NCBI RefSeq assembly: GCF_027105095.1
Contig: NZ_CP114278.1
Span: forward strand, 930,001-994,000
Direction of reading: 5' to 3'
Length of the DNA stretch: 64,000 bases
From: Brevundimonas vesicularis
GTDB taxonomy: Bacteria; Pseudomonadota; Alphaproteobacteria; Caulobacterales; Caulobacteraceae
The position numbers were made by a program, and so were the translations under genes. Below the pieces are notes generated by a model. That model ran no database searches, was not told the DNA's origin, and worked only from the letters and a program-made list of their open reading frames with translations. This document shows positions 14,653 to 19,566 of the stretch, in pieces (position 1 is the stretch's first letter; each line of letters starts with the position of its first letter).

Positions 14653-16530
14653 GTGCGTTTCGACGAGAGATTCATCGATGAACTGAAGGCTCGCCTTCGG
14701 CCGTCCGACGTGATCGGGCGGACGGTGAAGCTGAAACGTCAGGGTCGCGAATACGTCGGCCTGTCGCCCTTCTCGAAGGAGAAGTCGCCGTCCTTTTTCG
14801 TCAATGACGACAAGGGCTTCTTCCACGACTTCTCGTCCGGCAAGCATGGCGACATCATCTCCTTCCTGCAGGAAACCGAGCGGCTCAGCTTCGTCGAAGC
14901 GGTGCAGCGCCTGGCCGGCGAGGCGGGGATGCAGCTTCCCGCCGAAGACCCCAAGGAGGCCGAGCGCGAGCAGAAGCGGGCGGGACTGTCCGACTGGATG
15001 GACCTGGCCCAGAAATGGTTCGCCGCCAATCTGCGCCGCACGCCGGGCAAGGCGGCGCGTGAATATCTGGACAAGCGCGGCCTGCCCGAGGATCAGTGGG
15101 AGCGGTTCGGGCTGGGCTATGCGCCCAACGACCGCGAGGGGCTGAAACAGGCCTTGGTCCAGCGCGGCGCCAAGCCCGCCGAACTGGTCGAGGCCGGGCT
15201 GCTGATCTCGCCCGAAAGCGGCGGCCAGCCCTATGATCGCTTCCGCGACCGGCTGATGTTCCCGATCCTGGATGCGCGCGGCCGGATTGTCAGCTTCGGC
15301 GGCCGGGCCATGAACCCCGACGACCGCGCCAAATATCTGAACGGCCCGGAAAGCCCGCTCTTTCATAAGGGCGCGACCCTCTACGGCCTGCCCGAGGCGC
15401 GGCGCATCCTGGGCGCGGAGAGCAAGAACGACCAGGCCATCATCGTGGTCGAAGGCTATATGGACGTCATCGCCTGCCAGCGCGCGGGCCTGCCGGCCGT
15501 GGCGCCGATGGGCACGGCTCTGACCGAGGAGCAGATGGCGTTGCTGTGGCGGGTCAGCTCGGAACCTATCCTCTGCTTTGACGGCGACCCGGCAGGCCAG
15601 AGAGCCGCTTTCCGTGCCGTCGAACGCGCCTTGCCTCTTTTGAAACCAGAGCGAAGCTTTCGCTTCGTGACACTCACTGGGGGGCAAGATCCAGATGATA
15701 TGTTGAGGGAGAAAGGTGCGCCGGCGCTGCGTGAAGCGATGAGCGTAACCAATCCATTTTCGCGAATGCTGCTCGACCGGGAGATGGCCGAGGTTGGGGC
15801 TCTCGATACACCCGAGAAAGAGGCGGGGCTTCTGGTTCGGCTACGTAAAGCAGCAGCGACTATCGCCGATCCAGATCTGGCGAGGACTTACAAAGACTTT
15901 CTCGTAGGCGCCTTTTATCAGCGAGTTCGCCCTTCACCTGAAGAAAAAAGAGCCGCGAACAGGGTCATATATAGGGACCGAAAAGCACGTTCGATGGCTC
16001 CAATTATGGATGTGACGCCGGAGGCGCGCGCTGCCGCCATCACCCTGGCGCGTGCGCCTCGTCCGGTCTTGGCTGCCATTGTGGAAGGTCTGATCGCTCA
16101 TCCTGACACGGTCAACGAACGTGGCGAAACATTAGCGACCCAAAGTTTCGGCGACGTCGGCCTTGATCGTTTGGTCAGTGACCTCGTGAGGCTGACCTAT
16201 GAAGCGCAGGCTATGAGCAATGGCCTGCTGAGGTCACGATTGTTGGCAATGGGACACGAGGAAACGCTCAGGCGGATAGACCGCACTGCCGCAATAGCCC
16301 ATGCCCCGTTTTTGGACAGCGCCGCATCGCTTGAAGTTGCGGCAGCGGGACTGAGCCGCGCAGTGGATGTTCTGCTTCAGTCCATGGCGCTCAGTCGAGC
16401 GATGAATGAAATGAAGTCCGAGGAAAGCTTTGATAGCCAGGCGTTCATTGGTTTGAAGGGACAACGTGACGCCTTGGACCGCTTCATATCCAGCGGCGAA
16501 ATCTGGACAGATACGGCCACCCTGCACTGA
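14653..16530 (+). CDS. dnaG: DNA primase DnaG with a compositionally foreign C-terminal half
   Basis: A 625-residue primase starting at GTG 14653. The N-terminal zinc-ribbon region reads GLSPFSKEKSPSFFVNDDKG then FFHDFSSGKHGD, where the usual Cys-His-Cys-Cys ligands are replaced. The catalytic core and TOPRIM domain follow (VVEGYMDVIACQRAG, ~266; CFDGDPAGQRAA, ~310). From about 15600 the DNA changes: a hand count gives 70% GC at 14941-15000 but 53% at 15901-15960 and 57% at 16201-16260. The foreign part covers the helicase-binding domain. A toxin-antitoxin pair and a native-like copy of the dnaG 3' end follow, which indicates replacement of the 3' half by recombination. The reading frame is intact. 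Confidence 0.9.
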   Translation: MRFDERFIDELKARLRPSDVIGRTVKLKRQGREYVGLSPFSKEKSPSFFVNDDKGFFHDFSSGKHGDIISFLQETERLSFVEAVQRLAGEAGMQLPAEDPKEAEREQKRAGLSDWMDLAQKWFAANLRRTPGKAAREYLDKRGLPEDQWERFGLGYAPNDREGLKQALVQRGAKPAELVEAGLLISPESGGQPYDRFRDRLMFPILDARGRIVSFGGRAMNPDDRAKYLNGPESPLFHKGATLYGLPEARRILGAESKNDQAIIVVEGYMDVIACQRAGLPAVAPMGTALTEEQMALLWRVSSEPILCFDGDPAGQRAAFRAVERALPLLKPERSFRFVTLTGGQDPDDMLREKGAPALREAMSVTNPFSRMLLDREMAEVGALDTPEKEAGLLVRLRKAAATIADPDLARTYKDFLVGAFYQRVRPSPEEKRAANRVIYRDRKARSMAPIMDVTPEARAAAITLARAPRPVLAAIVEGLIAHPDTVNERGETLATQSFGDVGLDRLVSDLVRLTYEAQAMSNGLLRSRLLAMGHEETLRRIDRTAAIAHAPFLDSAASLEVAAAGLSRAVDVLLQSMALSRAMNEMKSEESFDSQAFIGLKGQRDALDRFISSGEIWTDTATLH

Positions 16531-16554
16531 CAAGTCGTTGGGTGTTGACGTGGT

Positions 16555-16574
16555 ATAGGTTAGGATCAAACTAT
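16555..16574. promoter_or_regulatory. Possible toxin-antitoxin operator at the antitoxin start
   Basis: ATAGGTT and AAACTAT form 7-base arms with one mismatch around AGGATC, overlapping the antitoxin ATG at 16573. A TTGACG hexamer lies at 16545-16550 but has no good -10 partner. Autoregulation is common for such antitoxins; the site itself is a weak prediction. Confidence 0.3.
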
Positions 16575-16818
16575 GGATGGTTCTCAACCTGTCAGGATCA
16601 CGCGAGACGGCGACCATCAGGTCGTCCATCTGCCCAGCGGCGTGTCAGTCCCAACCGACGCGGTGGTTCGTCAGGAAGGCGGGCGGTTGATCATCGAACA
16701 AGCCGGGACTGGCTTGGGATCGGTTGAACGACTGCTGGCAGTGCTGGCGACGATGGAGCCGATCGACGAGCGTCTCGACCCGATCGATGATCCGCTACCT
16801 GAGCCGGTCGATCTTTGA
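16573..16818 (+). CDS. VapB/AbrB-type antitoxin
   Basis: An 81-residue protein whose N-terminal half (VRITRDGDHQVVHLPSGVSV, then RQEGGRLIIEQ) has the swapped-hairpin AbrB/MazE pattern of VapB antitoxins. The C-terminal half is acidic and proline-rich, as expected for a toxin-binding tail. It starts 42 bases after the dnaG stop and its stop codon overlaps the toxin start. It would bind the toxin and repress its own promoter. Assignment depends on pattern plus the adjacent PIN toxin. Confidence 0.7.
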   Translation: MDGSQPVRITRDGDHQVVHLPSGVSVPTDAVVRQEGGRLIIEQAGTGLGSVERLLAVLATMEPIDERLDPIDDPLPEPVDL

Positions 16819-17222
16819 GCGGATATATGCTGGACACCAATGCGGTGTCGGACCTGATGTATGATCCGCTAGGTCCAGTCGGGCAGCGTATGGCTATGGT
16901 CGGCTCAGGGGAAATCTGCGTCAGCCTGATTGCGGTCGCTGAGTTGAGGTTTGGTGTCGCCAAGTCTGGCTCGGTGCGCTTGGCCGCTCAGTTGGACAGG
17001 GTGCTGTCCGGCTTGGCCGTCAAGGCATGGGATGCGCCTGCCGATCATGTTTACGGCGATATCCGCACCGATTTACACAAGCGTGGCCAGCCTATCGGCG
17101 GCAATGATCTGCTGATCGCCGCGCATGCCTTGGCACTCGACTGCATCCTCGTCACCGACAATGAGCGCGAGTTCTCGCGCGTGCCCGGCCTGCGGGTTGA
17201 AAACTGGTTGCGGAGCGATTGA
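16815..17222 (+). CDS. vapC: VapC-type PIN-domain toxin
   Basis: A 135-residue PIN ribonuclease. The acidic residues are in place: Asp in MLDTNAVSDLMYD, Glu in VSLIAVAELRFGV, and the pair in GGNDLLIAAHALA and CILVTDNEREF. VapC toxins cleave tRNA or rRNA and are held by the cognate antitoxin. The TTG at 16815 overlaps the antitoxin stop and is the preferred coupled start; ATG 16827 would shorten it by four residues. It appears intact. The next frame (dnaG remnant) opens at a TTG overlapping its stop. Confidence 0.8.
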   Translation: MSGYMLDTNAVSDLMYDPLGPVGQRMAMVGSGEICVSLIAVAELRFGVAKSGSVRLAAQLDRVLSGLAVKAWDAPADHVYGDIRTDLHKRGQPIGGNDLLIAAHALALDCILVTDNEREFSRVPGLRVENWLRSD

Positions 17223-17545
17223 ACCTCGCGCCGCTTGACTCCGCCGCCCTGCGACGCCATCTGGCGCAATCGGGTCATGATGCCTTAGTGCGCGAGGTCG
17301 AGAAGGCGGCGGCAAAGTCCGGCGCGCCATTCCTGGCCGCAAATGCGCCCCTCGCCGAGGCAAGGGTCCGATGGTCGCAGGCGTTCGACGCTTCGACGCG
17401 GGTCGCCGCGTTGGAGGACGCCTTGGCCCATGCACGTGATGTGCCTGGGCAGGATGAGGCGTTCCGCCGGCTGAAGGCCGAGCGGGATGCGCTTCGCCGT
17501 GCGATCAAAGCCGGGACGATTTGGGAAGACAGCGCGGGCACGTAA
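17219..17545 (+). pseudogene. Remnant of the original dnaG 3' end
   Basis: An open frame of 108 codons from a TTG at 17219. Its product aligns along its length with the last ~105 residues of the DnaG encoded just upstream: GHDALVREVEKAAA with GHEETLRRIDRTAA, AKSGAPFLAA with AIAHAPFLDS, and [20 protein letters not shown] with LKGQRDALDRFISSGEIWTD. Its GC content is native. It ends 74 bases before rpoD, where dnaG ends in related genomes. It is best read as the stump of the displaced gene; whether it is translated is unknown. Confidence 0.8.
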
Positions 17546-17619
17546 CCTTACGGCACGCCAAGCATTGTATTTTTCGCCGGGGCGGACTGATCACCCTCTC
17601 GGCTGGAGACAGACTGACT

Positions 17620-19566
<1,947 letters not shown>

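Follow-up and report, generated by a model that had tools for sequence, protein, structure and literature searches.

Apparent recurrent replacement of the dnaG 3' end beside a retained, promoter-like stump upstream of rpoD in Brevundimonas

In the macromolecular synthesis operon of Escherichia coli, rpsU, dnaG and rpoD are encoded in this order, and promoters of rpoD, one of them a heat-shock promoter, lie inside dnaG. Other genes are altered at their ends by incoming DNA: staphylococcal cassette chromosome mec (SCCmec) in rlmH and integrative and conjugative elements (ICEs) in tRNA genes restore the 3' end of the gene that they target, while mosaic genes arise by homologous recombination. The macromolecular synthesis operon is the subject of titles cited in PMC3415461. 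The present analysis concerns the dnaG-rpoD locus in a stretch of 64,000 nucleotides (nt) from Brevundimonas vesicularis, referred to as the window (positions 930001-994000 of contig NZ_CP114278.1, a single-contig genome of 3.12 Mb, labelled G000), where the primase gene dnaG carries a foreign-looking 3' part and is followed by a VapBC-type toxin-antitoxin pair, a stump of the displaced dnaG end, and rpoD. This arrangement is described in no title or abstract opening among the literature matches listed, which is not proof of its absence.

Recurrent recombination probably brings foreign 3' ends into dnaG and separates the gene from an rpoD promoter embedded in it, with the displaced end surviving as a promoter and VapBC and other genes acting as exchangeable passengers. 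In the following, genomes with such a separation are called carriers and those with the ordinary arrangement natives, and "stump" denotes anything from an intact dnaG 3' end to barely more than a promoter-like motif. The gene order in the window is dnaG, vapB, vapC, a 108-codon frame and rpoD; a mis-assembly is unlikely because the genome consists of one contig and because G039 and G110 have the same order. The features of the locus are as follows.

14653-16530, plus strand: dnaG, a complete open frame of 625 amino acids.
14653..15540, plus strand: host-type 5' part of dnaG (zinc finger, catalytic core and start of Toprim), with about 100% amino acid identity over residues 1-280 to G126, G128, G061 and G018.
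15540..16530 (boundary approximate), plus strand: alternative "B-type" 3' part of dnaG, residues ~297-625, lower in GC, with 41% amino acid and 46% nucleotide identity to relatives.
16531..16572, no strand: spacer from the dnaG stop to vapB, into which the switch between tail and toxin-antitoxin genes in G027/G028 falls.
16573..16818, plus strand: vapB-like antitoxin gene of 81 amino acids, assigned by position and a weak VapB model match.
16815..17222 from TTG, or 16827-17222 from ATG, plus strand: vapC toxin gene with a PIN domain, assigned by PIN and VapC model matches.
17219..17545 (native from 17234), plus strand: stump, the displaced native dnaG 3' end of 108 codons, 100% identical over 317 nt to G126 and G061.
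17234..17262, plus strand: promoter-like motif CTTGAC-N15-CGCCATCT at the left edge of the native sequence, recognised by the motif survey in natives and carriers.
17294..17356, plus strand: further conserved blocks 3' of the motif (about +60 to +80 and +110 to +122), recognised by identity among decayed stumps and by invariant synonymous sites.
17620..19566, plus strand: rpoD, starting 386 nt after the motif.

The DnaG protein of the window is a chimera of a host-type front and a distant tail. Compared with its closest relatives (G126, G128, G061, G018 and others), its residues 1-280 are about 100% identical, whereas residues 320-625 share about 41% of their amino acids, in line with a preliminary description of the window, made from the sequence alone, which had proposed that the 3' half of the gene was replaced. 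At the DNA level, identity to G126 amounts to 97.8% in rpoB, 95.8% in the N part of dnaG, 46.3% in its C part and 100% in the stump. When dnaG is divided into windows of 60 nt, identity to G126 is 93-100% in windows 1-14 and 88% in window 15, and the left switch point lies near codon 295-300, at about 15.54 kb (dnaG nucleotide ~870-900). Within this single intact frame, the GC content falls from 0.71 (14900-15199) to 0.55 (15700-15999) in 300-nt windows, as described before; the B-type part has a GC content of 57%, and its GC at third codon positions is 59, against 86 in the N part. The zinc finger, catalytic core and Toprim domains score above their cut-offs (PF01807, PF08275, PF13662, TIGR01391), and a Pfam search of the tail returned no match. 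The predicted structure of residues 434-625 has a pLDDT (predicted local distance difference test) of 86.9, and its best three Foldseek matches, all weak (E 0.59-0.85, prob 0.69-0.84), are the DnaG C-terminal domains 6cbr, 6cbs and 6cbt.

The 108-codon frame, still open in the window and overlapping the vapC stop, encodes a product that aligns to residues 521-622 of the window DnaG with 36% identity (E 3e-14), and its residues 6-108 are 100% identical to the ordinary DnaG end in eight close relatives (L045, L047-L049, L074, L075, L077, L079). Together with the spacer behind it, the stump matches the dnaG end of G126 at 99.5% over 417 nt. The match begins precisely with CTTGAC (17234), and the sequence on its left side is unrelated. 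The earlier claims that this frame resembles a DnaG end and that it is the displaced end left as a stump are borne out, and the stump was presumably a working dnaG end until recently.

The dnaG region was collected from 131 genomes of the genus, of which 123 could be assessed; the eight left out comprise G013, which contains a run of N, four genomes with dnaG cut by contig ends (G032, G095, G111, G112) and three with no dnaG match (G053, G064, G096). An AT-rich insert breaking the dnaG frame of G013 was considered and ruled out, the stretch being that run of N. Twenty-eight carriers were defined by a dnaG-rpoD gap above 300 bp, not by the motif, and G101, G067, G125 and G056, in which the dnaG-rpoD arrangement is longer or interrupted, were added after inspection of the locus. 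The separated arrangement is present in 32 carriers against 91 natives, about a quarter of the assessable genomes. The gap measures 59-93 bp in 90 natives and 173 bp in the native G118, 305-428 bp in 15 carriers without vapBC, 1061-1110 bp in 12 carriers with vapBC, and 2226 bp in G072, which also holds vapBC. In the G118 locus (L094), about 100 extra nt lie between dnaG and rpoD and appear partly self-complementary by eye. No stump match beyond the motif was recorded in five carriers (G075, G119, G090, G017, G124).

Separate trees of the two dnaG halves, a check named beforehand, differ. The halves thus escape one of the two outcomes that had been set as refuting, and the other, a stump frame unlike the DnaG ends of close relatives, did not arise either. 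Carriers and natives are intermixed in the tree of DnaG residues 1-280; in that of residues 517-618, which has few columns and many long branches, 21 carriers including the window are grouped (SH-aLRT 99) and seven more stand apart (86). An rpoB tree of 70 of the 131 genomes, hand-picked and with G101 and G125 labelled native, requires at least 18 changes between native and carrier state, or 21 when tail types are distinguished. The sisters G027 and G028 share 97.5% identity in rpoB, 99.3% in rpoD, 94.5% in the stump and 85% in the toxin-antitoxin genes, against 46.6% in the C part of dnaG. These sequence comparisons indicate that the dnaG tail was replaced repeatedly and that the N part, the C part, the toxin-antitoxin genes and the stump have separate histories.

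Tandem duplication of the dnaG 3' end within the lineage, followed by fast divergence of the promoter-freed copy in dnaG, would be another route to the same gene order. It would suit the long branches of carrier tails in several genera, the D- and E-type tails, which remain near-native to about codon 475-500 and differ mostly past the motif position, and the tails of G072, G101, G125 and G056, which group with natives. In G000, however, DNA identity to the sister is 100% for the stump and 96% for the N part but 46% for the tail, which joins other B tails and is lower in GC. Duplication in place is not supported for the window's own case and is distinctly unlikely as a general account; some types, most probably that of G072, G101, G125 and G056, could ultimately have arisen in this manner.

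Exactly one copy of CTTGAC-N15-CGCCATYT lies inside dnaG in 90 of 90 natives, 309-321 nt before the end of the gene, and G118 is alike. In the 28 carriers, the motif never lies within dnaG and always falls between the stop of that gene and rpoD, in agreement with the earlier suggestion that the stump keeps the rpoD upstream region. The motif is kept even where early stops close the stump frame (G017, G075, G119, G097); where rpoD has moved away (G067, G056, G125), it is absent from the dnaG region and precedes rpoD by 362, 338 and 338 nt, accompanied by remains of the former dnaG end. Retention of the stump as a conserved free-standing C-terminal protein was ruled out, since many carriers have lost the frame or retain none that can be recognised.

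All 90 natives use CTT at codon 517, and CTT makes up 318 of the 5627 leucine codons elsewhere in native dnaG genes; codons 518, 524 and 525 are invariant, those between vary freely at synonymous sites, and many synonymous sites in codons 535-557 are invariant among natives. In 11 decayed-looking stumps, four of which still have open frames of 83-98 codons, identity to native sequence rises from about 0.29 on the left side of CTTGAC to a higher value at the motif, where the global alignment understates it. Two blocks (about +60 to +80 and +110 to +122) reach 0.82-0.89 in the same stumps, with lower identity between and after them. These blocks lie inside the putative rpoD leader and may correspond to a leader RNA or to a second promoter; a scan of the stump for RNA families gave nothing above the gathering score.

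Because the tail and the N part can differ in age, a comparison of synonymous divergence (dS) within the tail was added. The ratio of dS at the tail end to that of the mid part of the same gene has a median of 0.25 in 15 native pairs, against 1.11 in 10 of 14 carrier pairs, the pairs being hand-picked and non-independent, with four carrier pairs of saturated tail dS excluded from the rank tests; the ratio of tail end to N part is 0.49 for native and 1.59 for carrier pairs. These ratios indicate that synonymous change is suppressed in native dnaG tails and that the constraint is lifted in carrier tails. An rpoD promoter region is probably embedded in dnaG, and the stump would be retained because it carries this putative rpoD element. 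The sigma-32 consensus of E. coli is CTTGAA-N13-15-CCCCATNT, and the motif presumably resembles it.

The left switch from host-type to alternative sequence varies by tail type, lying at codon ~297 in B, ~475 in D and ~420-510 in E. The right joint is nearly fixed: in 20 of the 22 carriers aligned to native sequence, the native part starts 0-11 nt left of CTTGAC, and the remaining two, G082 and G006, have a stump whose start is not alignable. A right joint of this kind, which is nearly constant, together with the lower GC of recent tails and an outcome like that of SCCmec or tRNA-gene integrases, which restore their targets, could be expected of a relic of a site-specific integrative element that targeted the dnaG 3' end, carried a restoring copy and was later reduced to toxin-antitoxin genes or nothing. 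Such an origin is quite improbable in view of the differing left switches. Moreover, no flanking direct repeat of at least 14 nt is present in 15400-17700, those found lying within vapBC; the dnaG-rpoD interval of G000 holds only vapBC and the stump, with no integrase, the intervals of other carriers not having been systematically searched for integrases; and the two other cargo genes scanned encode a methyltransferase and a kinase.

All 11 carriers whose stump frame is intact have a tail GC content (last 105 codons) of no more than 62%, against 2 of the 17 others (Fisher p 3.6e-6); the cut was set after seeing the values, kinship was ignored and G006, with an open, non-dnaG-like frame, was counted as decayed (11 of 12 otherwise). 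Because low tail GC goes with intact stump frames, the simplest reading is that tails would have entered repeatedly from a lower-GC pool and then been adjusted to the host. Among 8000 candidates scored, 54 protein clusters with at least 49% identity stand out sharply as B-type tails, after which identity drops to 41% or less, and the best matches of the window tail are alphaproteobacterium L41A (99%) and Brevundimonas species. Candidate donors were rejected among phages, where the best match is the primase of Caulobacter phage Sansa at only 30% identity, and among plasmids, where the 10 of 30 matches listed give 29% over 90% of the query or cover shorter parts; none was confirmed among viral contigs. 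The Sansa gene (KT001913.1:60813-61598) is the phage's own DNA primase, 30% identical to the window tail over 88% of the query.

The recombination reading would proceed in the following manner. In Caulobacteraceae, a promoter-like rpoD element would sit within the last ~104-107 codons of dnaG. Recombination would swap the 3' part of the gene for a distant, lower-GC homologue ending just upstream of the element. The crossovers would fall, on the left, within the conserved 5' part of dnaG and, on the right, inside the stump or at its left edge. DnaG would thereby be complete again, and the old 3' end would be kept only for its element. Homologous recombination in the dnaG 5' part and the stump would spread the arrangement, with selection favouring both a complete primase and the rpoD element, and VapBC would be a passenger in the sole free spot.

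Several observations weigh against this reading. The right joint is tighter, recent cases included, than selection on the promoter alone requires, and is not fully explained. No tail donor was found in the phage, plasmid and viral-contig collections. When the window's own genome was searched loosely for the motif, 6 hits were obtained and the reversed control yielded 2, so that no sigma-32 regulon could be recognised; a sigma-70 promoter scan found no promoter. The tails of G072, G101, G125 and G056 fall within natives in the C-terminal tree, so not every separated dnaG has a foreign tail, and the rpoB tree cannot separate gain from loss of the alternative tail. For other genera, 20 genomes with extra DnaG matches were re-searched and 20 regions taken, a non-random sample of which 17 were used for the motif: it lies inside dnaG in 11 of the 17 and downstream of the stop in three (G319, G274, G204), the strict motif is missing in another 3 of the 17, and it is also missing upstream of rpoD in four of the eight genomes searched (G289, G151, G293, G167). 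The four native-like tails and the lack of a strict motif in some other genera slightly lower the confidence in the recombination reading; the duplication route is given slightly more weight. In five genomes of other genera (G320, G300, G243, G284, G178), dnaG matches with one in-frame stop were seen, TAG in four and TGA in one.

The toxin encoded behind dnaG matches the PIN family (PF01850, E 5.9e-14) and VapC models including a tRNA(fMet)-specific one, with E values of 8.8e-34 (the tRNA(fMet) model) and 6.1e-22, below the curated cut-offs, and the antitoxin matches the VapB model weakly (E 0.034). A PIN toxin with an adjoining small gene upstream identifies the pair as a probable VapBC type II toxin-antitoxin system, in keeping with its first description. 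Three imperfect 21-nt repeats lie at the end of vapB and the start of vapC (window 16756-16871). A PADLOC defence match was discarded: only the N-terminal primase part matches models of DRT, and VapB and VapC match none.

The preliminary description further held that VapBC drives the spread, travelling with a dnaG 3' end and thereby anchoring itself in an essential locus. Its observations are confirmed and this interpretation is partly supported. The linkage to dnaG stands: in 12 of the 12 other genomes of the genus with a VapC match of at least 50% identity, vapC lies right behind dnaG; vapBC occurs with several dnaG tail types; and reversion to the native allele would remove the antitoxin. 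As a general cause, the pair is unlikely. It is present in 13 of the 28 carriers with rpoD at a measured distance and absent in 15, and the toxin looks broken in two of the 13 (a frameshift in G039, an in-frame stop in G100). Between G106 and G028, the dnaG tail, the start of vapB, the end of vapC and the stump are 80-100% identical per 50 nt, against 46-64% in the vapBC core, and in G027/G028 the switch between unlike dnaG tails and similar toxin-antitoxin genes lies in the spacer region between dnaG and vapB. The toxin-antitoxin genes and the dnaG tail have been exchanged separately. In addition, relatives of VapC with about 58% identity occur on plasmids of other genera, and the 12 VapCs of the locus are scattered in a tree among 120 public VapCs (11 changes against a shuffled mean of 11.6), some of which may themselves be linked to dnaG.

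Other genes occupy the same place. An FkbM-type methyltransferase gene (PF05050) lies between dnaG and the displaced motif in G072 (L175:2622-3656), whose interval also holds vapBC, and in G101 (L171:7296-8450, minus strand), whose interval has no vapBC match. In G204, which belongs to another genus, a hybrid histidine kinase of 685 amino acids (HisKA, HATPase_c, receiver; L182:2805-4862) is encoded convergently to dnaG between dnaG and rpoD. By eye, G023, which lacks vapBC, appears to retain the last bases of vapC before the stump. VapBC is treated here as a passenger, possibly fixing the arrangement where it is active, and not as a general cause, because it is absent in 15 of the 28 carriers, looks broken in two and is exchanged on its own, and because other cargo is found elsewhere. 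It may help where it is active, since replacement by a native allele would remove the antitoxin.

A more speculative extension, which we consider unlikely, is a self-spreading allele of an essential gene: an alternative tail with vapBC, set between dnaG 5' sequence and the stump, would convert native loci by homologous recombination, and back-conversion would be selected against through loss of the antitoxin. If true, this would be a drive-like asymmetry without a recombinase, enabled by a promoter buried in a coding region.

Under the recombination reading with passengers, an overlap of coding and regulatory sequence in a core operon would have been undone again and again, turning old coding sequence into a stand-alone regulatory relic. 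The locus would provide a natural experiment on DNA with a double role, in which sister species carry the same protein domain with and without the embedded regulatory element. It also shows that the 3' half of an essential replication gene can be exchanged for that of a homologue sharing about 40% identity, and that exchanges of this kind can take toxin-antitoxin genes along.

Compared with known systems, the locus combines familiar parts in a distinct manner. Like the tRNA(fMet)-specific VapC branch of VapBC, it has a PIN toxin with an overlapping upstream antitoxin gene; set against VapBC type II systems, its sequence is ordinary, and it is unusual solely in its recurrent place between dnaG and the promoter-like relic of rpoD. 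Like mosaic genes, it switches abruptly from host-type to distant sequence inside one frame; unlike them, only one end resembles an ordinary crossover, and at the other end a partial duplicate remains whose left edge is nearly fixed. As with SCCmec and ICEs, the target receives a new 3' end and the displaced end lies at the far side with cargo between; unlike in those elements, about 100-330 codons are replaced, the left boundary varies, no integrase or flanking repeat was found in the window, and cargo is optional. As in the rpsU-dnaG-rpoD operon of E. coli, a promoter-like element for rpoD appears to lie within the dnaG coding region, followed by rpoD; unlike in that operon, acquisition of a new dnaG end seems to have dissolved the overlap on many occasions, the former end persisting as a relic.

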